Below are positions 10,870 to 49,400 of a DNA stretch of 64,000 nucleotides, piece by piece. The DNA comes from Siphonodentalium dalli. Lineage: Eukaryota; Mollusca; Scaphopoda; Gadilida; Siphonodentaliidae. Position 1 is the stretch's first letter. Every line of letters begins with the position of its first letter. Position numbers and translations under genes: made by a program. The stretch is from NCBI GenBank assembly GCA_032622095.1, contig CP136069.1, positions 83,784,958 to 83,848,957 of the forward strand. The letters are read 5' to 3'. Below the pieces are notes generated by a model, which worked only from the letters and a program-made list of their open reading frames with translations, was not told where the DNA came from and searched no databases.

Positions 10870-11086
10870 TACAGTAATGCTCTAAGCAATCGACTTCTTA
10901 ACCACAGCAGAATTATGGGTAACTTTTCAGGATTTAGTCGAAAATATGGCTTGTTGCCATTCATCGGAAAGCTCTCCCCGAGAGCTTTCCGATGAATGGC
11001 AACAAGCCATATTTCTGACTAAATCCTGAAAAGTTACCCATAATTCTGCTGTGGTTAAGAAGTCGATTACTTAGAGCATTACTGTA
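10870..11086. mobile_element. Foldback MITE family F, duplicated copy
   Basis: Copy of 7873-8089 carried by the 2997-bp duplication. Confidence 0.85.
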
Positions 11087-11100
11087 TTAATAAATAGAAT

Positions 11101-11532: not shown

Positions 11533-11805
11533 AATAGAATGAAAATGATAAAACCTATGAAGTAATGTCTTAAAGATGTATCTATGAACCCTATTTTAAT
11601 TTCCCATTATCATAGTAGAGTATAAAATAACATGCTTTGAACAAGAAGTTCCGTGGTTTATCAAGCAATAACTGCAGCCTCCACTTCATCATACAAATTG
11701 ATGAACCATATACGTCACTTCAAGCCAATCATGTGTACCCGCTCACTGCGTGTTGTTTTGAGACTGTGTTGGAATTGGAACAATGTGTTACTTAAAAACA
11801 TATAA

Positions 11806-11948
11806 AGGAATGACTGGAAGATCAATTGGGGGTCATTGGTTTTACCGGCAGAGTAATTAAACAAAGTTCGTCTGAATCCTGAACACTTTGTTTAATTATT
11901 CTGCCGGTCAAAATATAATGACCCCAATCGATCTTTCAGTTATTTCTT
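11806..11948. mobile_element. Foldback element, duplicated copy
   Basis: Copy of 8809-8951 carried by the duplication. Confidence 0.75.
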
Positions 11949-12161
11949 ATGAATACACAGCAGGTCTAGTTGGTTTAAAAAAAATTTCTTCAGAGGAACA
12001 AAGCAAATAAAAGGTCACTTACCAAAATGTCCCCCCAAAGAAGTTGGCAGGTTTGAAGGATTTATAGGTTTCAGATCACTATACTACAAACTGTAGGAGG
12101 AATTGATTACACCAATATGATATAAAGTGCATATTCACTAAATATGTTGCACATCTTCAAT

Positions 12162-12657
12162 GTGTCGAGAAAGGGTCAATAACTCTAAAATAAAAAACAT
12201 AAAATATTTCTATGTTGAAAAATGGCAATAACTCTGCCAAAATGACCCAGGTCTGAACTCTGCACACCTGTGATTTTGACATCTGTGTAAAGTTTAAAAA
12301 AAATTTACTGGAAAATGACGGAATACAGACTCAGACAAAAGATGTGTCCCAGGATGTACAATTCTATGTCGAAAAAGAGCAATAACTCTGCCAAAATGAG
12401 TCTGACTGAACTCAAAATCGCAGGTGCAGGTTCCCATGATGGTTGACATCTGTGCCAAGTTTAAAAAAAATTTACTGTAAAATGACGAATACAGGCTCGG
12501 ACATAGGTGCGTTCCAGGATGTATGATTTTATGTCGAAAAAGGTCAATAACTCTGCCAATATGAGTCCGACCGAACTATGCCAATTTATTTTTAAAAAGT
12601 GACAGAATACAGACAAGATGTGTCCCAGGATGTACGTTTCTATGTCGAAAAAGGGCA
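12162..12657. repeat. Pearl-like core tandem repeat, duplicated copy
   Basis: Copy of 9165-9660 carried by the duplication. One substitution is visible (CTGTGTAAAG for CTGTGCAAAG near 12287). Confidence 0.7.
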
Positions 12658-13404
12658 GTGAGTAATAACACCATTATAATCAGTTATAATCAGTAAAATA
12701 TTCTTTAAATATCCTGTTGTTACATATGCATACTGCTATATGACAGAGAAGTCACTTATCCCTGGGATATAAATAGGGAGAAGTGGCACATCTTAGGGAG
12801 AATATGTCTCCCAATTCGCCCTCTAGGCTAGTCCCTGGTACTGACATGATTAAATTAGATTTTGTATGTATGATTGTGTATGTATGATTGTGTATACTGT
12901 AATCTGAAAAAAAATACATCTTTAATTATTTAATCATTAGTGAATGTTTGAATCAAACAATTGATATTATGACCTAGTCACACTTTGCAAATTTGTTCGT
13001 ATTGCTAAAAGAAATGACAAACCAAGCTGCTATGTAAAAGCCACACAAAGTAATCAAACATTTATTTCACTAATTTATATTCTTTTAAAGATAGTCTATC
13101 TCTTCCTCAGCACATTTTATATAGTTTCTGGGGTATAAAATAATTAATATGAATCAACGACACCTGTCCAAAAATGCTTCTATCAATTAATATTGATTTA
13201 TTTAGATTTTTTTCCGGTATAATACATACAACCTATAATCTTAATGGCTTATTAAATGGCAACCAATTGTTTTACAGTATTCCGGGAATTGACAACTTAT
13301 AATATAGTAAATTATTTAATAATAACAAAACAGTGTTTCAATATTAAGTGCTTTTGGAACATGCATGAACAATTGTCATGGGTCAAATAGCAAGAGTATA
13401 TTAC

Positions 13405-16231: not shown

Positions 16232-19200
16232 CTGTGAAGTAAGGTGCCAGATTATAACATTGTATTTATAACAATCATTAGATGGTGTGTGAACTCCAAG
16301 ATAAAAAAAACCTCATGCATCATGCACGGCTTATTTTCCTCATGAAAAACATACTTGAAACAATATTTTACACATATTATATCAATGATATCATTAAAAC
16401 CAACACACAGAGCAGCCAAATTTAATGTAGCATGTTAGAGGTACTCAATCCGATCAGATGGTCCTCATATCATCAAGATACAACAACAACATTTCTTCAA
16501 AATACACTTTAGTTATCAGAATTGATTAATTGCAACAAAATAATGATAATCACTGTCAATAATGGTATCAAATTTCCCAAAACGTGTTATTTATCAACAT
16601 TTTGTTCCAACGAAATATGGCCACATTACACTTAAGTAATACAAAATTTGGATGCAATACCACTTTATTTTATAGTTATCCATCTTCATCTGCAATTTTG
16701 TCTGAGTCTGTCTGTTTAACAATCTCAAGCATTAACAAACTTCAAAAATCGATATCTGATAACTCTTGAGTTTTGATGTGTGGTTCATCGACTCGAATCA
16801 AATATTGTTTACCCCGAAGCCAAAGAAATAGTAATTTAGGAGTGTTAATTCGGATAATGCATCTTTAATGAAAAGCTGCATAGTGCGAATTACAATAAAA
16901 AACTAGTGGGCTAGGATCACCAAATTCACCCTCTGGGGGACCTCATTCTGCAAATAACAGACACCTTAAACTCAAGGATTCAACGAGTCCGAATCAGGCT
17001 CACAACAGGGACCAGCCTAGAGCTGGTTTTCATGGTGAAGTGACTTCACAGAAATAAGACAAAGTGGACATTGTCGACAAAGTCGATCACTATGGTTGTT
17101 GCTACACACAACAAAGAAAGAAGTGAAATGTAAATTAAAATTATAATTTGAATGGCTGAGATATGAATTCATTGGAAAATAACTGTAACTAGAGGTGGGG
17201 ACTAAGGATTAAAATCTCCAGAGGGAGAAGTCACTTCTCCGTGTTTTCAACCCCTAGCTTGGGCTCTGCTCTGGATATAAGCTATTTTGAATACAGATTG
17301 AATGTATACATGTATTACCTTATTTGAGTATGCAGGAAGTTCTCCTCCATAGTCACTTGGCAAGTTTTTCTTGTCAATAAATTCATGCAGTCCTTCCACA
17401 TTATACCCATGGAAATTCAGCTGAAATATGGTGCAAATAAGAAATATGACATTTTTGGTTTTCAATCTAAGTTAATTTTATAATACTCCACCAAATAAGA
17501 AGATAATGTTCAGCGAAAAGACAAAAATAACAAGAGGTTTATATAATAGGAAGGAATTGATAAACAAACCCGATTCTACAAGACTGTATTAAATACAGTA
17601 ATGCCATAAATAATTGACTCCTTAACCACAGAAGAATTATGGGTAATTTTTCAGGATTTAGTCGAAAATATGGCTTGTTGCCATTCACCGAAAAGCTCTC
17701 AAGGGCATTACTGTAGGAAATATTGCAATGTTCATGATTCATCTTAAACTCTACTCAAACATAGAATAAATAAAAGGTCAGCCGACCACAGTGTCCCCCG
17801 AAAACGTGGCAAGTCGACGCCGCTTTATTAAAGAAATTAAAAAAAATGTTGAAATGTTCTAAGTCGGAAGGGTTAATAATTCCGTAAAGAAATATTTTTT
17901 CCATCATCTATATACATGTTGCACATCTCCATTATGTGGGTAACAATACTCTGAAGTTTCAAATATCTACGATCAAAACTGTAGGAGGAGTTGATTACAC
18001 CATGAAGGTACCCTCATACAGAAAATTATAAAAAATGTTTTTCAAAGTCGAAAGGCCCATAACTCTGGGAAAAATCATTGGATCAAACTCAAATTCGAAC
18101 TTGACCTGTATTTTGATATGAATGACCCACAAAAAAACAGGATTTCCAATTAAACAATCCAAACTTGAGTTATCACCCGGAAACCAAAGAAAAAACAAGA
18201 AAATTGAATTTTCTAAGTCGAAAAAAGTCCATAACTCTAGGAAAAATCTTCGGATCACACTCAAATTCGAACTCAACCTGTATCTTGATATGACTGATCG
18301 ACATAAAAACAGTATTTGCAATTAAATGATCAAAACTTGAAATAACATCCGGAAACCGAAAAAGTGAGAAATTTTCTAAGTAAAAAAACAGTTGAAAAAA
18401 GGGAAATAACTCCATAAAAGAACATCGGATCAAACCCAGAATTGCAGAGAACCTGTGTTCATGGTTGAGACACCTACGTACCAAGTTTCAATCAAATCGG
18501 ATGATCATTATTGGAGTTATAGCTCGGGACGGACTGACAGACAGATGCATGGACGGACGGACGCGGCTGATTACAATAGTCCCCCAAAAATAACTTTTCG
18601 GGGGACAATAAGTGGGCATCACAAATATAAATTATTCTCTGACAGGCTATTGTACTTTCGCCACAATGCACTTTCAGGTTTTACCTTTTGTGATATACAT
18701 CAATCTACAGATTGAATGTTTGTCATGTCTGATTCAGTGAGCTATGCATTTGTGGCAGCACAGTTTTAAGAAAACTTAAAACTTAGAATTAGGCCATGCA
18801 AATTGTTTTGATATGATTCAGAATCTTTCCTCTGACTTGAATCAATTCAGAATTGACTGTCCTGATTCAAATTTAACAAGCAGTCGCAAGACGACGGTAT
18901 CTCCCACCGAATTGTGCAGTTGGGGAAGTGCATTCTCAATAATGTTTGCATTCTCAGTATGCGCTAAACAAGAGGTGGGATTTTGTCAAAAAGCCTGGCT
19001 TGCGAACTCATTTTAGGTACTGACATTTGTGGAAACTAGCCATGTGACGTTGTCTATTTGCACCAAAAATAATAAACCAAGTCCAATAACTCTGCTGAAA
19101 ATATCTGGCCAGACCTGGTTTGCGAACTCGTTCTAGATACTGGTCATGTGAACTCATATACCAAAAATCTTTTAAATCCGTTAACATTTGTGGAAATGAG

Positions 19201-22200
19201 CCCTGTGACGTCATCCATTTGCACACAAAAAAATACACAAAGTCCAATAAGTCCGTTTAAAATATCCGGCCGGACCTGGTTTGCGAACTCGTTCTAGATA
19301 CTGGTCAAGTGAACTCATATACCAAATATCTTTGAAATCCGTTGAGATTTGTGGAAATGAGCCCTGTGACGTCGTCTATTTGCTATTTGGTAAATTCGAC
19401 AAAAATAATAAACAAAGTCCAATAACTCTGGTAAAAATATCCGGCCAGAACTGGCTTGCGATTTCATTCTAGGTAATGGTCAGGTGAACACATATACCAA
19501 ATATCTTTGAAATCCGTTAACATTTGTGGAAATGAGCCCTGTGACGTCGTCTATTTGCTATTTGGTAAATTCAACAAAAATAAAAAACAAAGTCCAATAA
19601 CTCTGGTAAAAATATCTGGCCAGACCTGGCTTGCGAAATTATTCTAGGTAATGGTCAGGTGAACTCATATACCATAAATCTTTGAAATCCATTTACATTT
19701 GTTCAAGTTATGACTCTTACAAATTCGGGACGGACGGACGGTACGACGGACAGATGGACGGACGGACGGCTCGACGGAACCCATTACTATATCCCCCGCA
19801 AATTTTAAATTTGGCGGGGGATAATAAAATTGTTGCCATCAAGTGCTTTCCTATGACGCTATGTACAGACTCAATGAACAGACTTCTGATACTAAGGTAA
19901 GGGAGTGACAGCACACACAGGTAACAAATGATCTATAAATAGACCACCCAATATCTGAAAGAATGACTAAGTCCACTGCAGTGATCGAGTAATTGTAGTC
20001 ACATGGAAATTACATATAACTGATTACGGCAGTTTCAGTATATGGTAGGAGGCTGACAAGGTTTTTCGAATGTGAAAGTTTGGAGGCACATATAAATTCA
20101 TTGCTCATTGCAATCACATCTGTCAGTAATGATCTGAATGAATATACTGTTCCATACCAAGCAACTGACCAACAACACAGTGTCTAAATGATAATCTACT
20201 CACCCTAGATACTAATTTCTCCTTCATAAATGGCTTAACGATGCTAAAAACAACATCAAAGAACATAGGCTCATTAAGATAATGGATTCCCTTGAATCTT
20301 CCAGGAAAACAGTCCTGAAAATAAAAAAATTCATGAAGATAAAAGATGGTACTGTTGTCCCTCCTAACCCTTTCATGATGGGAGCTGCGCTGGTGCAGCA
20401 TTAAATATCCTGTGCCAGTGCATTCTCTTATATATGAGTCTCCCATAGGGAGCCTCACATATATAAGAGAATGCACTAGCTTACAAGGTCAAGATAAATA
20501 TTGTTAGGCCAATGTATTCTCTTATATATGCGAGACTCACACATATAAAAGAATGCATTGGTACAGGTTTTTCGCAAAATTTCAGGAAACTCCAGTCATG
20601 AAAGAGTTAAATACATCCAAGGCAATAATCTTAAAAGAAAATAGAGTGTAGCAACAAGTGGAAGTGATAACAACATCAGTGTTGGAAATTGCAACATTCA
20701 ATTATGAGAGTGTCCTATTCTTTGTTCTAATTCAGCAGCAGACACAAAAATTGACATGCCACTCACGATGTAGTCTGCATGTTCCTGAATAGTTGTGTAG
20801 TCATGGAGTCATTTAATTCAATTACTTTTGGACCCCACACCTGCCAGAAAATTGTCTTCGGCTAATTTTTTTACACTGGCCATTTTTTAATTTGTTTGGA
20901 CTTTTTTTTTATATTTTAGCCAAATTGAAAAACCAAAATATATCATGATTGAGAAAACTGAAATCAAAAATAATTTTAAAATATTGAAAGGAAGAGAAAT
21001 ATGAAAGTGTCAATGATACTGTAACTCAGGAACTTATTTTTTGGCTGAGAAATGAATAGAGTGAGAAAGAAGAAGGAAAGTAAACTAGAGGTCACCTAGG
21101 GGTGAACTGTAGGGGTGAACCAAAGGATTTAGTCATAGAAAGAGTATATTCAAAGATGGCCCCCGGCGGCCATGTTTTTTAACGAATTTTGGTCAAAATA
21201 GGAGGCTCCCAACTAGACGTCACCCATGTTTTTCATCGAAAATTGAGGCTGTGCCGATGGATTCAAATTTGAAACAATATGACTGCTGGTGGCCATGTTT
21301 TTCAACAAATTTTTGTCAAGATACGAGACTCCCATCTAGAGGTCACCCTGAAGATATATATTAAGTTTGGTGACGATCAGATGAGAGATGTGGCATGTAG
21401 GGTGTGCCGAAAGATTTAGTCATACAAAGATTAAATTCCAAGATGACCGCTAGTGGCCATGTTTTTCAGAAATTTTCGGTCGAAATATGAGAATTCCCAT
21501 CTATAGGTCACCCTGAAGCTACCTATGAAATTTGGTGAAGATTGGATGAGGAATGCGGCCTGTAGGGTGGCCGAAGGAAATTGTTGACGGATGTCCGGTT
21601 GGACGCACGGACGACAGACGCCAACCCATGGCAATAGCTAAAACTTTACTTCGTAATGTTGATTGTTGAGCTTAACCCTTTCAGTGCCAGGGACCGATCT
21701 CATCGGCCCTAATTTACGGTCTGTAAAATCGGCCCTAAAAAAAGAAAAGAAAAAAAAATTGTTTGTTTTTTAGATTTTTTTTTTTTTGGGGTTGAATTTT
21801 GTTTGGGTATGCTTAAGCATTGATGCTTAAGCATGCTATAGCGAATTTAAAAACAAACGGGATAAAAACTTAGGGGCATGTTACAACTCAAAACTATCAC
21901 CAAGTATTCATAGTAATAATTTTGATGCCCATGAAAAACGTAAGATTCCTTGGCACTAAACCTACAAAATAAGTCTGTTAAAGAGTATAAGAAAAAATTA
22001 TTAAAATTGTAAAAAATTGTAAAACATAATAACAAATGATGAAAAATTGTTAGGCCAATGCATTCTCTTATATATGCGAGGCGACCTATGGTCGACTCGC
22101 ATATATAAGAGAATGCATTGGCACAGGGTATATGGGTTGATACAAAAATCAGACCTGGCACTGAAAGGGCCACTTCATTTTCGAGTTACCGATTATTTTT

Positions 22201-25200
22201 TTTAGAGTGACTTGATATACAGTTTTAATAACAATCTATGCCATAAAATATGATCAAAATACTATAATTCATCACTATTTGAAACATCTGTGTCTCAGAA
22301 GATGCCCACAGAGAAATAGACAAGACAGTCAATGACTGTGGGGTCGCTCACCAGACTGCAAAGACTGATAAGACTGGGACTGTGGAGACCAAAACAGTCA
22401 GCACTTTTCATAATCACTTTAAAAGAAGTAGATTTAAACAGGATATGTGGCTAGAGAGACTGTAAGTATGTAGATTGGTGAAAATCCACCTTGAAATTGC
22501 CAACTGTACACTACTGATCACCCCCCATTTAAAAACAAATCTGAATTGCAGTCAAGGAAGAACATTCCATTCTATATAAGCCAAATAGTTCTTGCAAAAC
22601 ATATTTTAAGAATTACTATGCAGTGAAATAGTTAAGTCTCTGGCTCTGCCCTTATTTGACTTTGTGATCCCATTTTCACAAATCTGATAAGGATAAGATT
22701 TAAGTTCCCCAGTTGAAGTTGGTGATATTCACCCATTGGGCACCTCATTTATGAATTTTATCTTCTGCAAGTTAGGGGATATAGAAACTTCCTAGAAGGG
22801 AAATTTAACTAACAACAATGTAAATTTGATACTGTAGATACTTCCCAGAAGATGAGGCCTAAGCAGAATGAGGTCTCCAGAAGGTGAATTTGGTTATGCT
22901 AGCCCGCTGTGTGGGATAGCATCACAAAAAGCGTGTATGTTCCTACATTGTGCATGCCTGGCCTCAAGCAACACAATGTATTATACAATCAAGCCTTGAA
23001 ATAGTGTGAAAGTGTGTCAGTCATTTGCAGAATGAGGTCCCCAGAGGGTGAATTTAGTGATGCTATCCCGCACAGCGGGCTAGCATCACTAAATTCACCC
23101 TCTGGGGACCTCATTCTGCTAGGGCCCCCAACTGCTATGGCAGACCTAGGATAAGATTGAAGTTCCCCAGTTGAAGTTGGTGATGTTCACCCATTGGGCA
23201 CCTCAATTAGGAATTTATCTTCTGCAAATTAGGGGATATAGAAACTTCCTAGAAGGGAAATGTAACTAACAACAATGTTAATTTGATACTATAGATACTT
23301 CCCAGAAGATGAGGCCTAAGCAGAATGAGGTCTCCAGAGGGTGAATTTGGTGATGCTAGGCCGCTGTGTGGGATAGCATCACTAAATTCACCCTCTGGGG
23401 ACCTCATTCTGCAAATGACATTAGTCCTGATATGAACAATACATGAGAGATTGGGAATTAATGACATCTAGCAAATCTGCAGGAATGTTTATAAACATAT
23501 CAAGATTGACATGATTGTGTCGGCATACCCAGCATATATACAGTTACAGCCAAAGTAAATGCTTCTTATTAATGATTCTGTCAAGAATTTGAGTAAATTT
23601 TATTTTTGAGACCAGGCCAGGGTGGCAGAAGCAGTGCACTTGAATGAAGGGCCAGGGGCCACAACCTACAGAAATGTAATGGCATTAGTTTTTCAATTAT
23701 CAAAAAATGTTAAACAATATATATATATATTAAATTGACCATGGAGTTAAATACACTTTTTTTTTTTTTTTTTTAAATATTCTAATAAAAAAAAACAATT
23801 CCACAGTTTTTTTTAAATATTCTTTTATTTTTTAATATATCATTTCTTTTCTATTCTTTTCTTTTTTGGTTAAAGAGTTTAATCTGAATTTTTTTTTTCT
23901 GAGTTATGTCCCTGGCCCCACCCACATTTGACCCAGTGACCTCATTTGAACAAATCTGAACCCCAGTCAACCAATGATCCTTCATACCAAATATGAACCC
24001 ATTTGGCCTGATGGTATTCGAGAAGAAGATGTTTAAAAGAATTACTATGGAGGGAAAGAGTTATGGCCCTGGTTTCTCAACTAACCAACCTGGTGACCTC
24101 ATTTGAACAAATCTGGATGTGAGTCACCTAGGGAACATCCACACCAAATATGAACCCATTAGGCCTTATGGTTCTGGAAAAGAAGTCGTTATAAGAATTA
24201 CTATGAAGGAATAGAGTTGTGGCCCTGCTTTCGCAACTATTTGACCCAGTGACCTCATTTGAACAAATCTGAATGAGAGTCACCTAGGGAACATCCACAC
24301 CAAATATGAACCAATTCGGTCCAATGGAACTTTAGAAGAAGATGTTCAAAGAATTGTTGACGGACGGATGGACGGATGGACGGATGGACGGAAGGACGGA
24401 TGGACGGACGAGGAATGCAACAGAATTCAAATGTTTTCAATGCAAGGGGAAGAACTCTATCTTTAATATAGTGTTATTCCCCCTGCATTGAAAATAATAC
24501 TGATTTTTTACTTCAATCTTGATGACAAAACGCGTTGGCAACTCAACAAAAACAGTTTATTACACCGGATAAGTTGATAATACAATGTTTTGGAGCTTCC
24601 TCTTTCAAATGGTATATAATATGGCATATATTTTATATAATGTAATCTGGGGGTTCGAAAATTAAGTGGGCCTTTAAAATGATCCGGCTGTAGGGTATGC
24701 CGATGGATTCAAATTTAAAATCCAAGATAGCTGCTGCCGGCCATGTCTTTCATCAAAACTTTTTTTATAGCTCCCATCTATAGGTCATCCTGAAGCTACA
24801 TATGAAGTTTGGTGAAGATCGGATGAGGGATGTGGCCTGTAGGGCATGCCGAATGAAATTGATGATGGATGGATAGATGGACGACAGATCAAACTTTACT
24901 TGTGCACACCCAAAAACAATATAACTGAAAAATTTTGAACTAAGAAAATTGACACTTCACAAATGCACCAATGAGATTGGCAAATCAGTAAAATACCGGT
25001 AGGTCTAGTATGCTGTACCAACATAAATGTGCACAGACTTACTTATTGTATGGTGTGATGTTACAGTGTAATCATAAAACAGTAAGACTAAGAAAAAATG
25101 CTGTCATATAGCAGCTAATAATCATTGTTTTGATAAGTAAGCTTCGCAGTGGTAAATTGCCTCCGTAGGCTTGAAACTTTTTGGCCAAAGAATAATGTAA

Positions 25201-29340: not shown

Positions 29341-29369
29341 TATTTATCTACCAGCTGTTTAAACGAGCA

Positions 29370-29455
29370 GTATCTGGAGAAGTCGGCCCCGTGTGAAATT
29401 GGCCCCATACGAAGATGGCCCCATGCGAAGACGGCCCCAGAGAAGTCGGCCCCAT
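29370..29455 (+). repeat. Left TIR of MULE 1, five iterons
   Basis: Five consecutive units of the form AAGTCGGCCCC plus ~5 bases, spaced 15-16 bp, preceded by GTATCTGGAG. The same array occurs inverted at the other end and at both ends of element 2. Confidence 0.85.
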
Positions 29456-29511
29456 TAATCCTGGATCCCGTCCTCACAAAGTAAAGATAAGAAGATAAGA
29501 AGAGAGCCCAT

Positions 29512-30556
29512 GCCGCGGCTAAAGACAATATCTTCAAACGTGCAACAGTCGTAGTAGAATATGTTATGTCCGAAGATGTCGATCTAGATCTGCCATCCAA
29601 CAGCAGACCAAATCCAGCGAATCTTGTAAGAAGTACCAACTATCACCGACAGAAATATTGCCCTCCAGAGTAAAACAAAGATGGCGTCAACTTTGACATA
29701 GCAACTGATTTCCTTCCAGACGGTTTCCTCCGCAGTGACATAAAAATAGATGAGGCACGCCACACAATCTTCACCACCAACGAGCAACTGAGATTACTGT
29801 CGACAGCCAAAGACATCTACTGTGATGCCACATTCAAAGTCGCCAGAGAGCACTTCGCACAACTGTTCAGCATCCATGGGTTTATTGGCAACAAAGATGA
29901 CATGACTACTAAGCAGATACTTTTCCTCTATGCACTGATGTCCCGACACAGAACAAAGGACTACGTCGCCATCTCTGAACATAGTAAAGAGCTTACACCT
30001 TCAGTGACATCGACAAAATAACTGTGGTGAGGATCCAAGATTCCGGCCTGGTGACAGCACACTACAAATCTGGCCCTATCAACGACTTTTTTCAATTTCA
30101 TCTTCGCATTGCCATACATACCACTCAAACACATCAACCCTGCATTCAAGAAAATAGAGAGTTTTGCGATAGCCCAAGTAGAGCCGGTAGTGAAATATAT
30201 ATGAGACTACTGGTTGTCCAGCATCATGGTGCACCTTCATGATGTCGATCAGAACAAACGATGACACAGAAGGGTGGCATCACAGACTGAACAGAAAAGC
30301 CGGCAGTGCAAACTTGCCTTTCTATGTGCTCTTGTCACTTCTGCATTCCGAGGCGAAGTTAATCCCCCTGCAGCAACAACTAGTGAGAGAGAAGAAGCTA
30401 CGAAGAATCCAACGGAGCCAAACCATACACGTGCAAGGTCAAATTTTCAACCTCTGGAAGCTGTATAGAGATTTGACCACAAACCAGTTACTCTGAAGGA
30501 TCACAGAGATTTCAGCACCCATCACTGACAATGACAGTGACAGCGATGACGTTTGA
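29512..30556 (+). pseudogene. MULE-type transposase relic (FLYWCH-associated class)
   Basis: Reads as AAAKDNIFKRA...RPNPANLVRSTNYHRQKY, a TAA at 29671, then DGVNFDIATDFLPDGFLR, TNEQLRLLSTA and YCDATFKVAREHFAQLFSIHG, with a further TAA at 30019. After frame changes come LPYIPLKHINPAFKKI and the conserved TNDDTEGWHHRLN/NLPFYVLLSLL block. It ends in an acidic tail (SDSDDV, stop at 30554-30556). The first part of the RNase-H-like DDE region is present, the central part (DFERAIW to FHWGQAV of element 2) is missing, and several stops and frameshifts interrupt it. It cannot encode an active enzyme as written. Confidence 0.8.
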
Positions 30557-30822
30557 ATTTATTGTTATCTTTTATCATTTATTATTTTGTCATTATTATT
30601 ATCAGTTTCATATTTCATATAGTAAAACAAGGGGTATGCATCTAAGATGCTATGTCGAGTTTATTGGCAGTCAAAAAAAACTTGGCAATAAGGCCCACAC
30701 AAGGCCCAACTAGAGATGGGCTTGTCCCAAAAGGGACTAAGTAATACTCCCCGTATTCAAAATGTTATTTGAGTGAAGTAGCCATTACCATATATTGGGC
30801 ACTGAAATTATGTCAACAGGTA

Positions 30823-30936
30823 TCCCTAACCCTGAACCCCTTAACCCTAACCCCTAACCCTAATCATAACTCCACAAAAAAAAGTCAACAGGTATCCCTA
30901 ACCCTAAACCCCCTAACCCTAACCCCTAACCCTAAT
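30823..30936. repeat. Telomere-like CCCTAA motifs, first pair
   Basis: Two short blocks (30823-30863 and 30897-30936) of degenerate CCCTAACCCTAA text, each preceded by CAACAGGTAT and followed by TCATAA(A/C)TCCACAAAA. Embedded in the 355-bp repeat. Confidence 0.8.
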
Positions 30937-31174
30937 CATAAATCCACAAAAAAAGTCAGACAGACATCATAATCGCAGGTGCACAGGTTCCCATGGTACT
31001 AAATATCAGTGCCAAGATTAAAAAACATTGACCTAAAAATGTAGAAATAAAAGCTCGGACAAACTAGAGATGGGCTTGTCCCAGATGGGACTAAGTGATA
31101 CCCCCCTATTCAAAATGTTATTTGAGTGAAGTAGCCATTACCATATATTGGGCTCTGAAATTATGTCAACAGGT

Positions 31175-31274
31175 ATCCCTAACCCTGAACCCTAACCCCT
31201 AACCCTAATCATAACTCCACAAAAAAAAGTCAACAGGTATCCCTAACCCTAAACCCCCTAACCCTAACCCTAAT
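31175..31274. repeat. Telomere-like CCCTAA motifs, second pair
   Basis: Blocks at 31175-31209 and 31241-31274, duplicated with the 355-bp unit and slightly shorter than the first pair. Confidence 0.8.
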
Positions 31275-33135
31275 CATAAATCCACAAAAAAAGTCAGACA
31301 GACATCATAATTGCAGGTGCACAGGTTCCCCTGGTACTAAATATCAGTGCCAAGATTAAAAAACATGGACCTAAAAATGTAGAAATAAAAGCTCGGACAA
31401 AATTATGCATGTTGCAAAAAAATTTATAAGTCGAAAAAGGGAGATAACTCCACCAAAAAATGTCGGACAGATGTCATAATCGCAGGTGCACAGGTTCCCA
31501 TGGTACTAAATATCTGTGCCAAGTTTAACAAAAATTGACCTAAAAATGTAGGAATAAAAGCTCGGACAAAATTATACATGTTGTGAAAATTTTCTAAGTC
31601 GAAAAAGGGGGGATAACTCTTCCAAATAAAGTCCGACAGACGTCATAATCGCAGGTTCCCATGGTGGTTATTGTCTGTGCCAAGTTTCACAGAAAATGAT
31701 CAAAAAACGACTGAGAAAAACTCCGGACAAATTTGTGTCCACAGACGGACAGATGGTACGATGGACAGACGGATGGACAGACGGACAAGCTAATACCAGT
31801 ATACCCCCCCCACAACTCGTTGCGGGGGAGTATAATTATGCATGTTGCAAAAACAATTATAAGTCGAAAAAGGGAGATAACTCCACCAAAAAATGTCGGA
31901 CAGACTTCATAATCGCAGGTGCACAGGTTCCCATGGTACTAAATATCTGTGCCAAGATTTTAAAAAATTGACCTAAAAATGTAGGAATAAAAGCTCTGAC
32001 AAAATTATACATGTTGTGAAAATTTTCTAAGTAAAAAAATGGGGGATAACTCCTCCAAAAAAAGTCCGACAGACGTCATAAACGCAGGTGCACAGGTTCC
32101 CATGGTGGTTGATGTCTGTGCCAAGTTTTACGGAAATTGATAAAAAAACGACTGAGAAAAACTCCGGACAAATTTGTGTCCACGGAACGACGGACGGACG
32201 GACAAGCTGATACCAGTATACCCCCCCCCCCCCACAACTCGTTGCGGGGGGTATAAAAAGTCGGACAAACCTGGTTTTCGAACTCGTCTGAGATATTATT
32301 GCAATAGAATTATATACCAAATATAAATTGAATGATTGGTTAGTACCTCATAGAGTTATCGCGCTAACGGTGATAAAATTGCAAAAAATTGACAAACTAA
32401 GGCCCATAACTCCGGTGAAAAAATTGGGACAAACCTGGTTTTCGAACTCATCCAAGATATTGTTGCAAGAGACTCATATATCAAATATGGTTTGAATCAG
32501 TTAATATTTGATTCAGTTATCACGCTAACGGTGAAAAAAATGCTAAAAATAGACAAACTAAGGTCCATAACTCCGGGGAAAAAATTCGGACAAACCTGGT
32601 TTTCGAACTCGTCCGAGATATTGTTGCAAGAGACTCATAAATCAAATATGGTTGTAATCAGTTAATATTTGATTGAGTTATCGTGCTAACAGGTGATAAA
32701 ATTGCAAAAAAGTCATCAAAGATGGATAACTCTTGTCAACTAAGGCCCATAACTCCGGGGGAAAAATTCGGACAAACCTGGTTTTCGAACTCGTCCGAGA
32801 TATTGCTACAAGAGACTCATATATCAAATATGGTTGTAATCAGTTAATATTTTATTGAGTTATCACACTAACAGGTGATAAAATTGCTAAAAAGTAATCA
32901 AAGATGGATAACTCTTGTCAAAAAGTTCCGACGTGACCCATTTTCTACAGGCAGTAAATAGTCATTGGGAGCAACTCACATACCAAAATGTTTTTGAATC
33001 CGTTCACAAATGTCAAAGTTATAAGGCATTCTTTAGGTCCGCCCGCCTGCCAACTGTCCCTCGTCAAACCATAAGTCGAGTTTTTGAAAAACTCAACTAA
33101 CAAAGAATGATTTTAAACAGTGGTTCTGTTATGTA

Positions 33136-33219
33136 TGGGGCCGACTTCTCTGGGGTCGTCTTCGCGTGAGGCCGTCTTCGTATGGGGCCGACTGCGCAGG
33201 GCCGACTTTTTCTGTATTC
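33136..33219 (-). repeat. Right TIR of MULE 1, five degenerate iterons
   Basis: Inverted counterpart of 29370-29455 with more substitutions (for example AAGACGACCCC for AAGTCGGCCCC). Confidence 0.8.
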
Positions 33220-33741
33220 GAATGAATAATTACTGTATCCTGTAGTACCTCCAGTCAATAAGTGTACTATCACCCCACTATTATATGGGAAAAGAGTATA
33301 AACATATTCAATGGAGTATTTCCAATATCTACCTTCATTTTCAACACATTCGGTCATGGTCTGGTATGCATCAGTCTATGAGATGTACCGTCTTTGTAAA
33401 TGGGAAGGGTGGGGGTCATTCTGAACTTCTCGATCCTTGGTTTACCAAATGGTTTTAAGCGAAAATGAATGACGAAGTTCATAAATTCCAGATTTTGTAC
33501 CATATTTTTATGTCTGTAAACCTGACCAGTCTAATTAACAGAGCTATATATCGCTCTGAATGTTCCGAATCAAGTCAAATTGACTAGTTTGAAGAGGCAA
33601 TAAATTGGAGTTGTCCCATTTTTGGAAAGGACGGTCGGGTTAGTGAATTTTTTTTTTATAGCCTCATATAAGCTCATATAGCTTTATTTGAACAATATGT
33701 CTGCACAAGCCAGACAGATTTGGTTTCATATTTACAGGCTT

Positions 33742-34729
33742 TTAAGGAGGAGATAAAGTGACTAATTCTGAATGGGCATTTCCATGCAAATCTCCGCATC
33801 AAAAGTTAGAGTTGCAAATATTTCTGGGTGCATGTGACTAAATTTGTGCGGTATCGAAAACAATACATGTAATTCATTTGGCGGGTCGGCTTTCAATTTG
33901 TTCCATTAGAAGGTTTGTGTATTTATTTTTTAATTTTATATTGATTTTTCAAATGTAGGTAAAATATGTTGTAATTCCAGAAAAAAATTCTCAAAAAATT
34001 AATTTATAGCAAAAATTTACAATTTACCAAGCCCACCTGCCAGCTAAAAGCTTTGCCTGTCTAAAAATATGTTTGATTTAGTTCTCAGAGAACTGCTTCA
34101 TATATAGATCATGCCATGAATCTCTACACTGGCTAACACCCATAGAGATCATATTCCACCAGTACAAAACCTTGGAACTGTTTGATGTTTTGACAGCTAG
34201 GGAACCTTATAAAGTCGACAAAATAATGCGGGGAATATATTTCTTAGTTATTACCTGTTCCTTGATAATGCACTTCACTGTAGGTGAAGGTCCCAACTCA
34301 AAATTTCACGATTTATGTGGATCTGTCAGCAATTTTGCTTTGAGTGCTTACATTTATGGCATTTCTCCTGGATAATTAATTCAATGTTTATTCGATATCG
34401 GCTCACAAAAGTCACAGAAAAGCATGCAATTTTGAGTTGGGACATTCGCCTACAGTGAAGTACATTATTAAGGAACAGATAATAAGTTTTAATAACTAAG
34501 AAATATTTATTCCCCGCGTTATTGTTTTGACTAAAAAAATTGATAAGGCTCCCTAGCTGACATCAAAACTTCAAAAAGTTCCAAGATTTTGTAGTCTGAT
34601 GACATAATATGATCTCTACGGGCGTTAGCCAGTGTAGAGATTCATGGCATGATCTACTTCATATATAACTTTTGCTGTGGATATTTGAATGGAAATCCAA
34701 AATGATCGCTTAATTGACCTCCCCCTTAA
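33742..34729. mobile_element. Long foldback element with TTAA flanks
   Basis: Outer arms TTAAGGAGGAGATAAAG (left) and, read from the right, TTAAGGGGGAGGTCAATTAA. Inner arms of ~200 bp (ATCATGCCATGAATCTCTAC and its inverse) meet around 34330-34400. The left arm carries an extra ~290 bp (33809-34095) absent from the right. Non-coding. Confidence 0.75.
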
Positions 34730-34734
34730 TAATT

Positions 34735-36040
34735 TGCTGTTAACTTCAATGTCACTACAATTATACTGTCAAAAGTCATATGTACTAACAATTTAAGATG
34801 AAATCTTCCCCTGAATTTATGGCCATTAACATAACACCATGCAACATGACACCAGCCTTCAGATTTCATTTATGATCATTATACAATACCTGCTAGTGTG
34901 ACATCTACTAGTATTCAGCACATATACATGCAGATAAATATAAGCTATATACATTAGGCCATATGCCAATTGCTCTTGCCTAATTTTGCTAAGACCTACC
35001 GCTTATTAGAATCTTGCACACAGTTCTTTTTATACTAAAAAAGTGATAAGACAGGATGCTAAAATCAAGACCACTTCATGCACTACCTGACAAATGTGTA
35101 GGCCTACCTATATACTGCATATGCACCAGTAAAGTAAATCATTGAATTAGAATAATGAATGGCATTGGTGGAGAATGACATTCTAAATAACACTCATATA
35201 TTTTAGTATAATAAAGCAACCTAATACCATAAATTAACTTCAACGAATAGTGTTATGGTCTATGCACACGCACTCGAGATCAAGATAGAGATATTTGCTT
35301 TCATTTTATGTGGACCATGACGTTCTATTTATTGTCGTGAAGAAACAGGTGCCCGTTGGACTCGAATAGCGGACGAAATGAGTTGGAACAGGGGTACCGT
35401 ACTAATAAATATTTCGCGTAACCAACACAAACGTGTTTGTTGAATTGATAATAAAAATATAGCGTACGTAAAGTGTTACTAAATAAAATATATATCTATT
35501 CAAGTAAAATTATTCTCTACTGACTAGCTTATTTCTATTATATATAAATTCAGAATAATACTTGCTAAGTTAGTAATAACTAAATCAGCTGTTGTTTTGG
35601 GTTTTTTTTTGGTTAACGCGAAATAATATTGTTCGGCTGACTCGATGCGGTGAATCGAATACACCACTGATAATCGATAATAAATTTCGCAAGCATATAA
35701 CCATCAAAATCAACGATTTAACTTTTGTATAATTTGAATATACGGGTTTATTAACAAAATTCTGAAAGAATACCGTAAGAAGCCATCGTCTAATGACAGT
35801 CAACAAGACAGCAATTGTTGAATTAAAAAAAAGAAGAATGTCTTACTTTCCAATTTCGCGCTAGCAGTTTTGCAATGACTGATAGTGATATTGATATTGA
35901 TAATTAAGCCTAGCATTAAAAGAAAAATCCACATATTCCACTGTTCACATCAACGCTAATGCAGACGAAGTGCGATGGTTCCTTTGAGGATATCGGTATA
36001 GACATTGGTGAAGATTCTAAAAGTTCCAATGGTAGGTTTA
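34735..36040. other. Intergenic, nothing recognised
   Basis: AT-rich sequence between the foldback element and MULE 2. No exon-like frame, RNA gene or family repeat was identified. Confidence 0.4.
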
Positions 36041-36057
36041 TAAAGGGTCTTAGTTAC

Positions 36058-36150
36058 GAATACAGGAGAAGTCGGCCCCGCGCGAAGTCGGCCCCATACG
36101 AAGACGGCCCCGCGCGAAGTCGGCACCAGAGAAGTCGGCCCCATTTATAA
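36058..36150. repeat. 3' TIR of MULE 2, five iterons
   Basis: Begins GAATACAGGAGAAGTCGG and repeats AAGTCGGCCCC-type units five times at 15-16 bp spacing, ending at CCCCATTTATAACAG. Confidence 0.85.
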
Positions 36151-36278
36151 CAGAACTATTGTTTAAAATCAATCTTTATTTATTTTATGAAATATGAAAC
36201 TGATAATATAGTGACAATATAACAATAACAAATACAGTTAACAATTCAAACAATGTCGTCGTCGCTATCGCTCTCGAA

Positions 36279-36737
36279 CTACACGGCTTGGCCCCAGTGG
36301 AAGTTGCATCCGTGGATGTTGATATCAGGGTAGACAGTTGTAGCAGCTTTCCATATAGCTCTTTCGAAATCCACAGTCATTTTTTCGAATGTCGCTGAAG
36401 GTGCAAGCTGCTCTTTAACATGTTTAAAGATGGCGAGGTAGTCCTTCGTTCTGCATCGGGACATCAGTGCATACAGGAGAGGTATCTGCTTAACATCCGT
36501 CTCATCATCGTTGCCAATAAACCCATGGATGCTGAACAGTTGCGCGAAGGGCTCTCTGACGACTTTGAACATGGCATCACAGTAGATATCATTGGCTGTC
36601 GATAGTAATCTCAGTTGTTCGTTGGTGGCAAAGATTATGTGGCGTGCCCCGTCTATTTTGATGTCACTGCGGAGGAAACCATCTGGAAGGAAGTCAGTGG
36701 CTATGTCGAAGTTACTCCCATGAAGCTCATATATCAC
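36279..36737 (-). pseudogene. MULE transposase fragment (DDE/RNase-H-like core)
   Basis: An open frame of 152 residues: NFDIATDFLPDGFLRSDIKI, TNEQLRLLSTANDIYCDAMF, EPFAQLFSIHGF, MTVDFERAIWKA and ending NIHGCNFHWGQAV. These are landmarks of the MULE transposase core: D in the YCDAMF strand, D in MTVDFE, and the C-x-FHW segment before the third acidic residue, which is lacking. The frame stops at TAG directly after QAV, then continues FESDSDDD, the acidic tail also seen at the end of the element 1 relic, so ~300 residues are deleted. It is cleaner than the copy in element 1, with no internal stop. As a truncated protein it lacks the full catalytic triad. Confidence 0.8.
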
Positions 36738-36897
36738 AGATTGACATTATTTTTACATATATTATAGAGGCGAAATTACACTATATACAAGATTTAAGTA
36801 TATTCTCATATATACTTGAGAAAATATTGAAAAATGAATGTTCGTATACTTGAGAAAAAATGGAAAGTTTTATCAAAATTAAAATTTTAAATCACTT

Positions 36898-36978
36898 ACC
36901 TGTGTTACATATTTGATGAGTCCAGCGAGAACATCTGTCGCATTCTATGGACTCTTGTCGATCTCTGACAAGAGATTT
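36898..36978 (-). pseudogene. PHD-like zinc-finger remnant with splice donor, in MULE 2
   Basis: Reads KSLVRDRQESIECDRCSRW then THQICNTG, a C-x2-C-x4-H-x2-C pattern like the zinc fingers fused to some animal MULE proteins. A perfect donor ACACAG|GTAAGTG directly follows, and a stop comes two codons into the intron. A TGA lies immediately upstream in frame. Whether it was once an exon of the transposase transcript is inference. Confidence 0.5.
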
Positions 36979-37365
36979 TCAATAAACGCAGTCAACAGGC
37001 ATTGTGCGCTGAATTGAGGAATGTATGAAAATCGGATAGCTGGGCTTACCTTAATATATACGTCTATAAATCCGAAGTGAGAATAATGAGCTAATGGCTT
37101 CGTTCGCTAAGCAGCAATCAACAGTACTTAGCGGTTTCTTTCATTGTCTGTCGGCAACCATCATTGTTTTTATAACTGAGCCGCTGTCAGTGACTGTCCA
37201 TAAGTGAAGTTAATTTTGTTATTACAGCTAAGAAAACACTGCAGACTTCACAATTAGCCTACACAAACACGACACTAAATCAATCAAATTAAGTTGGGGA
37301 CCTCATAATTAGCCTAAATAAACACTATATCAATAAAATTAAGCCGATTTAATCCCTTCTAATTA

Positions 37366-37451
37366 ATGGGGCCGACTTCTCTGGGGCCGACTTCGTGCGG
37401 GGCCGTCTTCGTATGGGGCCGACTTCGCGTGGGGCCGACTTCTCCAGATAC
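37366..37451. repeat. 5' TIR of MULE 2, five iterons
   Basis: On the minus strand it begins GTATCTGGAGAAGTCGG, the same end type as the left end of element 1, so both transposases face away from this terminus. Confidence 0.85.
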
Positions 37452-37506
37452 CTTAGTTACTCTTACCACAAGTCTAGCTACTAAGCTGGGCTACTAGTGA
37501 TGTGGG

Positions 37507-37600
37507 AACGGGAAGATTCGGTCGCGGGAAGATTCGGCTCGGTATTTTTCGGTCGAGGGAAGATTCGGCTGAGAAGATTCGGCTGGGAAGATTCGGCCAG
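37507..37600 (+). repeat. Tandem iterons GGGAAGATTCGG
   Basis: Five ~15-20 bp units of GAAGATTCGG(C/T) type directly beside MULE 2. They are not identical to the MULE iterons but have the same spacing and style (AAGATTCGG versus AAGTCGGCC). Confidence 0.7.
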
Positions 37601-43400: not shown

Positions 43401-46400
43401 AATTTTCGAACCCTCAGATCACATATATAAAATATATGCCATATTATATACCATTTGAAATAGGAAGCTCCAAAACATTGTATTATCAACTTATTTGATG
43501 CTATAAACTGTGAACATGTTGTCTTTATTGAAAAATGACATCTGTTCTATGCTAAAGTTTCTACATAAAGTGTATTATTTTTAATGGAAGGGTAATAACT
43601 CTATATATTTAGATATAGAGTTATTCTCCTTCCATTGAAAATAAACTATAGTTTGAATTCTGATGCATTCTGGGAGCCATAACGGGGGAAATGATTTTAT
43701 AATTTCAGCTCTACGAACGATGCAAACGACATGGTAATTATCATGACAATGAGTTTATGACTCGAGTCAAAAACTCATTTTCATTATAATTACCATGTTG
43801 CATAGTGTATTATTATCAATATTTTTGCCGAATACCTCAGTTTTAATAATTTTTAGAAGCCCTTTTTGAAAAAAAGTCGTATTATGTTATCAGTCTGTCT
43901 GTCCGTCCGTCTGTCCGTCTGTCTGTCTGTCCGTTAACATTTTTGGTTTCCGATCGATAACTCCAGTTTGGATTATTTGATCTGAACCAAAGTTGGTATG
44001 TGTATTTCCCAGCTAAAGATACAGGCCAAGTTCGAATATGGGTTCCGTCCAATTATTTTTACATGAGTTACGGCCCTTTTTCGACTTAGAATTTGACCGT
44101 CTGTTAACATTTTTGGTTTCCGACCGATAACTCCAGTTTGGATTATTTGATATGAACCAAAGTTTGTATGTGTATTTCCCAGCTAAAGATACAGGCCAAG
44201 TTCGAATATGGGTTCCGTCCAGTTATTTTTACATGAGTTACGGCCCTTTTTCGACTTAGAATTTGACCAATTTCATAACATTTTGGTTTCCGACTGATAA
44301 CTCCAGTTTTGATTATTTGATCTGAACCATAGTTTGTATGTGTATTTCCCAGCTAAAGATACAGGCCAAGTTCGAATATGGGTTCCGTCCAATTATTTTT
44401 ACATGAGTTACAGCCCTTTTTCAACTTAGAATTTGACCAATTTCATAACATTTTGGTTTCCGACTGATAACTCCAGTTTTGATTATTTGAGCTGAACCAA
44501 AGCTGGTATGTGTATTTCCCAGCTAAAACTACAGGCCATGTTTGAATATAGGTTCTGTCTAATTATTTTTACATGAGTTATGGCCATTTTTCGACTTAGA
44601 ATTTGACCATATTTTGGCATTGAAATTAGGGGTATATCAGATTTTCTTCAAATGTAAGCTCAAATTATTATCTTATTTTGCAATAGTACAATTCGAAATG
44701 GCTAAAGGGCGTATTTTGCCACGCCCTAGCGATGCTCTTGTTGTTTTATATGGACATGGACATTGTCAGGCATAACCAGTTGGCCAGTTTTCTAGATTGC
44801 CTAATGAAGTTTCATTATCAGATTTTGATTTATAACCAAAACTGACCAAGTCACCTGGCAAATTTAGGACTGACATAAACATTGGATGTGTGTCATATTG
44901 GATGAAAATGTTTTTGCATAAAAAAAATCCAAATAATATTTTGTTATGTGTATTTTTTCAGGATTGTTTCCCCATTAGGTTTGGTGCTATCCATTTCATT
45001 AATCAACCTTGGTACATTGAGGCAATTTTCAAGCTTCTGAGGCCATTTCTGAAAGAGAAAAACAGAAACAAGGTGAGTTGGTCCTGCATGATTAATCGTT
45101 TTGTCGAATTAATAATAGTTATTAATGCTTGAAGTTGTCAACAGTTTTCCATACTCACTCATATTTGTCTGCCGACCCAATGGGTTCGGAGGACTATTAT
45201 AATCAGCACGTACGTGCATCCGAGGTTTCCGGATGATAACTTTAGTTAGAGTGAACCAAATTAAATTAAATTTGGTATGTGGGTTTACTAGCAGAAAAGA
45301 CAGGTCAAGTTTGAATTCTGGTTCCGTCCGCCAATTTTCACCAGAGTTATGCCCCTTTTTTGTTCAACTTAGAATTTGACCAATTTCATAACATTTTGGT
45401 TTCCGACCGATAACTCAAGTTTTGATTATTTGATCTGAACCAAAGTTGGTATGTGTATTTCCCAGCTAAAGATACAGGCCAAGTTCAAATATGGGTTCCG
45501 TCCAATTATTTTTACATGAGTTACGGCCCTTTTTCGACTTAGAATTTGACCGTCTGTTAATTCGACTTAGAATTTGACTGTCTGTTAACATTTTTGGTTT
45601 CCGACCGATAACTCCAGTTTGGATTATTTGATCTAAACCAAAGTTGGTATGTGTCTTTCTCCCAGCAAAACACAGGTCAAGTTCGAATTTTCTCCAGAGT
45701 TATGTCCCTTTTTGACTTAGAATTTTTGCCAATTTGAGGTTTAGTAAATGTGTACTGAATGAAATTAAATTTGGTATATAGGTTTACTAGCACTAAAGAC
45801 CGGTTTTTATGCGCAAACAACGGTCGTATCAAGCCGACGCTTAGAGGCGGACATGAGGTCTACCGACCTTTTATTAAATTTATACATTATTATTTTTCTA
45901 TGAAGTTGTGAAAATCCCAGTGTATGAATTCAAAACTGACGAGAACATTTCCCTATACAATCTCCTAGCTGATGGTGCCGGTATATAAATTTTTAATCCC
46001 TCAAGTCTTCTTTGAAGTAGATTTCAATATCATTAAAAATATATTCATCTTTGATGTAGTCGTCATAGCAAATTATTTCAGGATGAAACTATCTCTTAAG
46101 CATATTTTAGTGTAATAGAATATTACAGAGTGATCAGGGCATAAGTTTTTACCACTCACATCCGCATCTCTCCCACTATTTTCAATCATGCCCCAGGATA
46201 GAGTCTTGAAGATGTGCTTTCATGTCATACCAGGTAACTATAACTCAAATTTGCAGTCACCTGTTCACCTGCAAATGGCTTTTATGAAGAAATATTTTTC
46301 ATTTTTGAAAGATTGATTTTTCTATCTTGTTTTTCCTAATTATACTTACTTCACAAGAACAGCTATTTTGTCATATTATTTTTTGTTCAGTTTTAATTTT

Positions 46401-49400
46401 GCACACTGAATCGGCGAATGAATGATTGTTCATCATCATCATCATCATCATCAATTTATTAGGAACGATCAATTCAGCTTTTAGTTCCCATAATTACATA
46501 CCAAATAATTAACTTTTTGTTTTAACGTCACAATGTGTTTCAAATAATGGGTCGGCATTGAGTTTAGTACTCAACTAACGGAATTGTTTGTTTTTGTACT
46601 GTTCTCGTCGTTTCCGAAGTTCTTTTCTAAGTTCATATTGTTCATTCAGTTCCTTTTTTGAACAATCTTTGTTGAAATACACCTTATGGTGTCTGTCGAC
46701 AGTAGTTTCTTCTCGGTTCAACTGAATTGCCCTTTTGCTGACCTGATCTCTGTGTGTTGTCATTTAATGTTATTTTCACCAGTCTATATTTGTGTTCTGG
46801 TAGGTAAATGATTCTTTCAAATGTGATGATATTGTTCAGGCTATTTACGTTTCTTATCATGTTTTCTGTTTCTATTATGTCTTCTTCCTCAGTTGGTTTT
46901 GGGGTATATTTACAGCTATTATGTTATTATTCTTGTCTTCGGTTTTGGTCTTCTTCCGGGTCAGGTCGTTGAAGTTTTGATTGATGTTCTCTTCTAGTTT
47001 TCTCTGCATTTCTTTCGCTCTTCTTCTTTTAATTTTATTATCCATTTTTCTGTTCAAGGCATCAAGGCACGCTCCATAACCTATTGTCTAATTTCGTTAT
47101 ACGGCTCTGCAAATATGATATGGTGGTTTCAAGTTTATACATCCTAACGCTAACCTCTGTTGTGTACTTCTCTAACTTTGCTTTGGATTTTTTGTTGAAA
47201 GATTCAAACCAGATGTCAATTATTTTGATATATTTTTCTTCATATCTTCTTGTTTAATCACATTTAAATACTAGTGAGGTAGTTGACTATAACCTGGAGA
47301 ATAAAAAATGCCATAACTTTCAATTAGTTATAAATATAACAATCAAATGATTTTCAAGGGCGTTATGGTTTATTTTTATATCCTTTACCCCATTCTCCTC
47401 CCTTCTGATTGGCTTATGGTGCATCACATGTGTGGTCGCAAATCACTTATTACCCTCGAGGGTAACATTTTGAAGAATGACCGCCACTCCCGACCTGGCA
47501 GCCAATGGGTGACATTCCAGGTCTCAAGCAGACGACAAATCCCTGTGTTTCACTCAATTGCAGGCGACAACTGTATTATTACCACTTCAGAGGGCATTCC
47601 TAGTACAAAAACATAGTTTTGCTAGTATATTAAATCCCTGTAATTTTTAAGAAGTCAGCTGATTTCTGCAGGCGTTAATGAAAATTATTTTCATTAACGC
47701 CTGCTGCCTCCTTCCGGTTGAGGAATTGTGGGAAAATTGCTTTATTTTTATACGCCCGTTATAGTATTGGTCTGTCCGTCCGTCCGGGCGTCCGTTAACC
47801 TGGTTTCCGGATGATAACTTTAGTTAGAGTGAACCAAATTTAATAAAATTTGGTATGTGGGTTTATTAGCCGAAAAGTAAGTTCAAGTTCGAATTTGGGT
47901 TCCGCCCGACAATTTTCACCGGAGTTATGCCCCTTATTTGACGTTTTTTTACTTGAAATTTGTTGTCCGGATGATAGCTTTAGTATAGTTTATCGGAATT
48001 AATCCAAATTTGGTATATTACTTTCTCCCACCAAAACACAGGTCAAGTTCGAACTTGGGTTTTGTCCGACCATTTTTGGCAGAGTTATGCCCCTTTTTCG
48101 ACTCAGAAAATTCAGTTTTTCTTATGTTTTTTGGTTTCCGGATGATAACTCGATTTTGTAATGTTTATACGCAAAACCCGTTTTTTTGTGGCTTACATAT
48201 ATCGAAATACAGCTCAATTCCGAATTTTGTTTTAATCCGATAATTTTTGCGAGAGTTATGGCCCCTTTTTTTACGTAATTTGACTTAGAAAATCCCTGAA
48301 ATTTGTTGTCCGGATGATAACTTTAGTTAGAGTGAACCGATTTCAATCAAATTTGGTATGTGGGTTTATTAGGAGAAAAGACAGATCAAGTTCGAATTTG
48401 GGTTCCGTCCGCCAATTTTCCCCAGAGAGGGGGTATTTTGCACGCCCAGCGTAGCTCTTGTTTTATTTAATGTCAACTCAACTTGACAAACTTTCATCAA
48501 TTTAGTTATGTTTTATGAAATAAAAACACAAAATTGAATTGTATTGATCGATTTTACATGTAGGTGAGTATAACTTATTCTCTTTGTAATAAATGGCAAT
48601 GTTTATCGGTTTAGGTAACTATTTTCGTTGTAAATAATAAGGTTGATCAGCTGACCGATCACGTGATTCTGCTTGTAAATAAACAGATGACACGCTGAAT
48701 AATACGTCAATATAAATTCAAAATGTCTTAATCAAGCGAATTGGATGAGTTTAAAACCACAATTTCAGAATTTAATGGAAAGATCATTGAATTGAAAAAA
48801 TGTTGTTATTTATATTTTCCCCACAAAGCCCACATTTGATATTGCATGAGAGTAGCAGTAGCTCTTGATGTAAGTGATAATAATAGTAATAACATCATTT
48901 TGTCATGTGTCATGGTTTATTAACGGCCCTCTAGGAATGATTTACAGCCCTCGGGCCTATTAGCGGCCCACGACTGCATCTCGAGCCGCTAATAGGCCCT
49001 CGGGCTGTTAATCATTCCTGGAGGGCCGTTAATAAACCATAACGCCCTACAAAATGATGTTATTGTTATATTATTTCCACCTATAAGGGCATTCTCTAGA
49101 ATATTAATGACGTTTTATCCTGCGATAAAATCCCATAACACTAACTAAATTACGTGAATATGTAAGTTCATTATGGCCCTAGGGCGCTAATGGGATATGC
49201 TCGTCGTTAGCACGAGATGGCCCGACACGTCACGTGACCAAACTGTCGATGACTTTTTCGGAATTTTTTATTCTAATAAAGCTTTTTAATGAAGAAATAC
49301 CCGATTGCCATGTATTACATAGAACACATACCTAACTAAATGGTATCCTAAGGTAAACACAGGTATACATTATTTCAATTTAAGCATTATTACGCGAGTT

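Follow-up and report, generated by a model that had tools for sequence, protein, structure and literature searches.

Two probable members, both decayed, of a Phantom/Muta-type Mutator-like transposon family with five-iteron ends

What are the arrays of short, evenly spaced repeats at positions 29370-37451 of a 64,000-nt stretch of Siphonodentalium dalli DNA (the window, throughout), and do they belong to the ends of transposons? The arrays lie at the ends of two related, mutually inverted elements, E1 (29370-33219) and E2 (36058-37451), and the 2.8 kb separating E1 from E2 is part of neither. With a probability of roughly 85%, E1 and E2 are non-autonomous, decayed copies of one family of animal Mutator-like DNA transposons (MULEs) of the Phantom/Muta type. 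A reading of 29370-37451 as a single element was rejected, since the ends pair into two elements and the polarity is consistent in each. The terminal inverted repeats (TIRs) and their flanks are as follows, A and B denoting ends with the outer motif GTATCT and GAATACA, respectively.

29361..29369, + strand: left flank of E1, AAACGAGCA, candidate decayed 9-bp target duplication (5/9)
29370..29459, + strand: A-end TIR of E1, GTATCTGGA and five iterons spaced 16-16-16-15
33132..33219, - strand: B-end TIR of E1, GAATACAGAA and five iterons spaced 14-16-16-15
33220..33228, + strand: right flank of E1, GAATGAATA, candidate decayed duplication (5/9)
36049..36057, + strand: left target duplication of E2, CTTAGTTAC (9/9)
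36058..36148, + strand: B-end TIR of E2, GAATACAGGA and five iterons spaced 16-16-16-15
37362..37451, - strand: A-end TIR of E2, GTATCTGGA and five iterons spaced 16-16-16-15
37452..37460, + strand: right target duplication of E2, CTTAGTTAC (9/9)

The A end of E1 is on the left and its transposase remnant is on the + strand, while the A end of E2 is on the right and its transposase is on the - strand. Both elements are therefore read from A (GTATCT) to B (GAATACA), giving one transposase polarity in 2/2 elements.

Each TIR (4/4 ends) is approximately 90 bp long and consists of five 12-bp units with the consensus GAAGTCGGCCCC, separated by spacers of 3-4 bp. The original prediction of five units in all four TIRs was confirmed, with 20/20 units at most two substitutions from AAGTCGGCCCC; its spacing of 15-16 bp holds at three ends but not at the B end of E1, where one step is 14 bp. 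Allowing up to one mismatch to AAGTCGGCCCC, all 16 matches in the window are within the four ends (chance expectation 0.28), and allowing up to two there are 25, comprising the 20 units in the ends and 5 isolated, scattered matches. Arrays with at least three units at 14-16-bp spacing occur four times in the window versus zero times in 40 simulated windows (first-order Markov). A literature string match for AAGTCGGCCCC led to a paper that, judged by its title, is about neuroendocrine tumours.

Tandem repeats in transposon ends can grow into satellites, as described for Tetris (PMC4079207), and the Tm1 elements are reported to have one to nine units, in numbers that are unequal between the two ends (PMC3169594). 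Both observations would be consistent with iterons that are an independent short satellite, or a product of slippage, that came to lie in the ends without contributing to transposition. This is very unlikely for E1 and E2, given that five units are present at 4/4 ends with nearly constant spacing, that rank-specific variants of the units are common to E1 and E2, and that no array of the AAGTCGGCCCC unit was found outside the four ends within the 64-kb window. A window-wide satellite was rejected outright, as matches outside the ends are scattered singles at up to two mismatches. The original prediction had named iterons occurring mostly without transposase or target duplication, as a satellite, as the observation that would speak against it, and this pattern was not found inside the 64-kb window. 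Across ends, identity is 91.4% between same-rank units versus 88.3% between units of different rank (47 of 5000 order permutations were as high), and the 4-bp spacers of units 1-3 have the same trend (74% versus 49%). Since same-rank units are more alike across ends, the array appears to have been inherited as a block, for which these four related ends provide modest evidence.

The outer motif, GTATCT or GAATACA, is followed by GGA (replaced by GAA at the B end of E1) and then by the iterons. It had been proposed that the two ends differ only in their outermost bases. A difference in the outer motifs was indeed seen (GTATCT-GGA versus GAATACA-GGA), yet other differences exist as well: the B end is 1 bp longer than the A end outside the iterons, and the sequence directly inside the iterons is ATAACAGAAC at B ends versus ATTAAT at A ends. 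The A ends of E1 and E2 are identical at 80/90 positions, their B ends are 87% identical over 123 bp, and the A and B ends of E2 are 93% identical to each other.

E2 has the perfect 9-bp target duplication that was originally noted, CTTAGTTAC matching at 9/9 positions on both sides, within the 8-11 bp by which MULE insertions are recognized. The flanks of E1, AAACGAGCA and GAATGAATA, contain no intact duplication; they match at 5/9 positions, and 4/4 mismatches are transitions. Among 400,000 random 9-mer pairs, at least 5/9 positions match in 6.7%, and in 0.12% all remaining mismatches are transitions as well, a comparison chosen post hoc, once the letters had been seen. Since transitions also account for 9/10 differences between the A end of E1 and that of E2, a decayed 9-bp duplication at E1 is plausible, although suggestive only.

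Parts of a transposase gene are preserved in both elements.

29491..30556, + strand: transposase remnant of E1 with stops and frameshifts, assigned by identity to E2 and by position
29491-29670, + strand: linker of E1, assigned by position
29674-30018, + strand: MULE core of E1, assigned by identity to E2
30055-30493, + strand: C-terminal pieces of E1, assigned by position
to about 30556, + strand: acidic tail of E1, the end of the remnant
36282..36746, - strand: transposase fragment of E2, MULE DDE core (PF10551), 155 codons between stops

The E2 fragment includes the first D, the second D, and the CxxH motif, and matches PF10551 with 31.9 bits (cut-off 27.6, E 1.8e-7), which supports the assignment to MULEs made in the original prediction. 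The E1 core scores 13.6 bits, below the cut-off of 27.6. The two transposases are 78% identical over 113 amino acids, and at the nucleotide level 86.6% over 343 bp and 76% over a 99-bp tail. The similarity of E1 to E2 stops at 30027, short of the second D. The C-terminal pieces of E1 have no counterpart in E2, and E1 in turn lacks a match to the stretch of E2 between the A-end TIR and the MULE core; the E1 linker and C-terminal pieces have no Pfam match above the cut-off. The Phantom/Muta family is characterized by an N-terminal zinc finger of the FLYWCH (or SWIM) type. No FLYWCH domain was matched in the 9 distinct element pieces scanned, which cover part of the reading frames and include one on the opposite strand. 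The N-terminal part of the gene appears to be missing from both copies, and neither E1 nor E2 is autonomous. Since the zinc-finger region was found in neither copy, the presumed reader of the iterons was not seen. E2 is best explained as the product of an internal deletion, and E1 has lost the 5' part of the coding region and the second catalytic D, in addition to acquiring its stops and frameshifts.

Relatives of the 155-residue fragment were sought in collections that do not represent the right hosts. Pattern matching returned 3 stretches from IMG/VR and 20 from GTDB genomes, none of which was confirmed, and none among phages. A pair of iterons had 0 matches in IMG/VR and matched three stretches in GTDB genomes (L001, L002, and L003), all judged to be due to chance. 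By eye, L001 and L003 are GC-rich bacterial DNA with a period of 15 bp that probably encodes lysine-rich sequence, and L002 is a repeat of 13-14 bp flanked by two apparent bacterial genes.

The proposal that no described MULE has ends of this layout was contradicted by the literature, since Muta1 and Muta5 of Aedes (PMC5225508) and Tm1 of Meloidogyne (PMC3169594) are described with it. Muta1 has a 145-bp TIR with a 10-bp terminal motif and nine 12-bp repeats separated by 3-4-bp spacers, Muta5 combines a motif of 8 bp with nine repeats of 15 bp, and short (9-15 bp) subterminal tandem repeats are reported in 10/12 Aedes MULE families with long TIRs (PMC5225508). The two Muta elements resemble E1 and E2 in this combination of a terminal motif with short tandem repeats and in their 8-9-bp duplications, but differ in having nine units in TIRs of 145-151 bp, compared to five in approximately 90 bp, and the terminal motif of Muta1 is described as an imperfect palindrome. 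The spacing of the catalytic residues, D214/D283/H307 in the active element Muta1 (PMC5225508), is the same as in E2 (D1-D2 69 and D2-H 24 residues, D-69-D-24-H), as compared by residue numbers with E2 residues picked by eye. In contrast, a FLYWCH finger is predicted in 13/14 Aedes families (PMC5225508) and was not found in the scanned pieces of E1 and E2.

Tm1, a Mutator/Foldback element, is described with unequal 7-bp end motifs (A1/A2), GGA, and 13-15-bp tandem repeats, like the ends of E1 and E2, and also resembles them in its duplications of 8-10 bp, mostly 9 bp (45/53 complete elements), and in its MULE-domain, Phantom-type transposase (PMC3169594). It differs in that its repeats number from one to nine, are most often 14 bp, and vary in count between ends, and in that many Tm1 copies have an additional purine-rich motif D (PMC3169594). 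The Muta1/Tm1-like plan, in which short subterminal tandem repeats come after a terminal motif, is present at 4/4 ends of E1 and E2. In sea-urchin TU elements, tandem repeats of ~15 bp make up the outer domain of the TIR, and the duplications are 8 bp long. Foldback-type elements such as FB, Tetris, and Galileo are similar in having long TIRs with internal repeats; however, their TIRs are much longer, the Tetris repeats are ~220 bp, and Galileo belongs to the P superfamily and has a THAP domain. Most foldbacks have been assigned to Mutator in an account that also mentions sea-urchin foldbacks (PMC4079207). Muta has been grouped with Phantom (group 20; PMC6446971), and membership of the E1/E2 family in Phantom is likely, based on a comparison of gross features as described in PMC6446971, PMC3169594, and PMC3688188. 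With its very regular ends of five iterons, the family is a further case of a layout known from mosquitoes and nematodes, which suggests that repeated end sites are common among animal MULEs.

The iterons are probably binding sites for the transposase, which makes this part of the original prediction a reasonable one. An N-terminal zinc-finger domain would bind each iteron, and the MULE DDE domain would act at the outer motif, with cut-and-paste transposition generating the 9-bp target duplications that are intact at E2. Several protomers on a regular array could make binding to a short site both tighter and more specific and could help to bring the two ends together, such that individually weak sites would sum to a specific, cooperative end complex. 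By arithmetic, a repeat of 15.75 bp corresponds to 1.5 helical turns (10.5 bp per turn), and adjacent units would thus lie on opposite faces of the DNA. For the THAP domain of Galileo, footprinting gave one site and more were identified by its sequence in the TIR tandem repeats; the authors of that work called a role of Foldback and Phantom repeats as binding sites untested. A strict need for five units is argued against by Tm1, with its one to nine units (PMC3169594), and by natural Muta1 derivatives, which vary in unit number, and Muta5, which has the same layout, failed to transpose in yeast (both PMC5225508).

The ends are 58-64% GC with 6-12 CpG per ~90 bp, compared to 36% GC for the window, and promoters are known to reside in the TIRs of MuDR (PMC3310237). 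The iterons might thus be mainly promoter, host-factor, or silencing sites instead of transposase sites. We regard this as unlikely, since the 3' (B) end has the array to the same extent although it needs no transposase promoter, and the near-identical geometry of the array at both ends is better explained by end recognition.

A different relationship, to Rehavkus, is raised by two further features.

30632..33092 (approximate), no strand: tandem-repeat block in E1, periods mostly 160-340 bp (Tandem Repeats Finder)
36895..36978, - strand: exon-like piece of E2 with half a PHD finger (PF00628)

Rehavkus elements are described with a PHD finger, a MULE-like DDE transposase, a TIR of 26-400 bp, a 9-bp duplication, and a minisatellite before the 3' TIR (PMC6446971). 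Compared by this description only, the E1/E2 family shares the TIR length and the 9-bp duplication (intact at E2), and possible counterparts of the other features are the half PHD finger in E2 and, in E1, a tandem-repeat block just inside the 3' (B) end; minisatellites near the corresponding place have been reported for both Rehavkus and aphid Phantom elements (PMC6446971). However, the block is absent from E2, and 10 of its 15 matches outside E1 are in arrays at 9284-9577 and 12281-12574 (71-77% identity), the remaining 5 being short (near 48063-48112 and 57047-57098). Given its absence from E2 and the related arrays outside the MULEs, the block is most likely a separate insertion, probably received by E1 at a later time near its B end. 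As a proven part of the family it was rejected because of the related arrays elsewhere in the window, leaving the minisatellite of Rehavkus without a demonstrated equivalent in the E1/E2 family. The PHD match has a marginal score and spans positions 9-28 of the 47 in the profile. A Rehavkus-like identity is therefore improbable, and the Phantom/Muta type remains the preferred reading. Arrays with periods of 156-175 bp are also present at 9279-9580, 18039-18357, 19064-19702, 21275-21575, 23926-24355, and 43935-44609, of which the one at 9279-9580, together with its copy at 12276-12577, is related to the E1 block and the one at 19064-19702 shares a 14-bp motif with that block. A head-to-tail duplication of 2998 bp with 99.9% identity (7053-10050 and 10050-13047) spans 7053-13047 and is either a recent tandem duplication or an assembly artefact.

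The half-finger itself, CDRCSRWTHQIC at 36907-36942, lies on the same strand of E2 as the transposase, in an open piece of 28 residues. This piece, picked by eye, matches PF00628 with 24.2 bits (cut-off 24.0, E 3.4e-5), and a donor-like GTAAGT (36899-36894) overlaps its end. The motif C-x2-C-x(2-4)-W-x-H-x2-C occurs once in the six frames of the window and in none of 40 simulated windows. A search of solved structures with the piece gave PHD-type chains as the best matches, all weak (best E 0.0058). The evidence thus consists of half a domain in one decayed copy. Gene models with MULE, PHD-like, and FLYWCH-like parts exist in marine invertebrates. A survey of MULEs uses 'PHD' twice in its main text, tying it only to Rehavkus (PMC6446971). 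It is a tentative and rather doubtful possibility that the intact ancestor had iteron TIRs and a transposase of the Phantom/Muta type to which a PHD finger that reads histones was fused. Such an ancestor would bridge Rehavkus, with its PHD finger, and Phantom, with its iteron ends, and could steer insertion via chromatin marks while using the repeated sites to recognize its ends. A real PHD exon would raise the questions of chromatin-guided insertion and of the relationship between Rehavkus and Phantom.

Several other features were observed in the window, in which no Rfam families and no tRNAs were detected. A second iteron array (37501-37598) begins 41 bp past the right duplication of E2 and has five GAAGATTCGGC-type units with starts 16, 31, 14, and 14 bp apart, the 31-bp gap containing a decayed unit. 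The GAAGATTCGGC 12-mer alone is not rare (5 matches at up to two mismatches, 2.24 expected, and as many in 6/100 shuffles); the array is distinguished by the clustering of its units, which resemble the first iteron weakly. No mirror-image partner was found in the window, and the array may represent either an orphan end or a single terminus of a related family of MULEs. Between the two MULEs, an interrupted long inverted repeat at 33778-34696, with arms that are 82-96% complementary (e.g., 34105-34155 and 34606-34656), is a probable unrelated foldback or MITE. An open piece at 42209-42673 matches CRAL_TRIO and CRAL_TRIO_N above the cut-off, as would fit animal DNA, and is likely an exon of a host gene.
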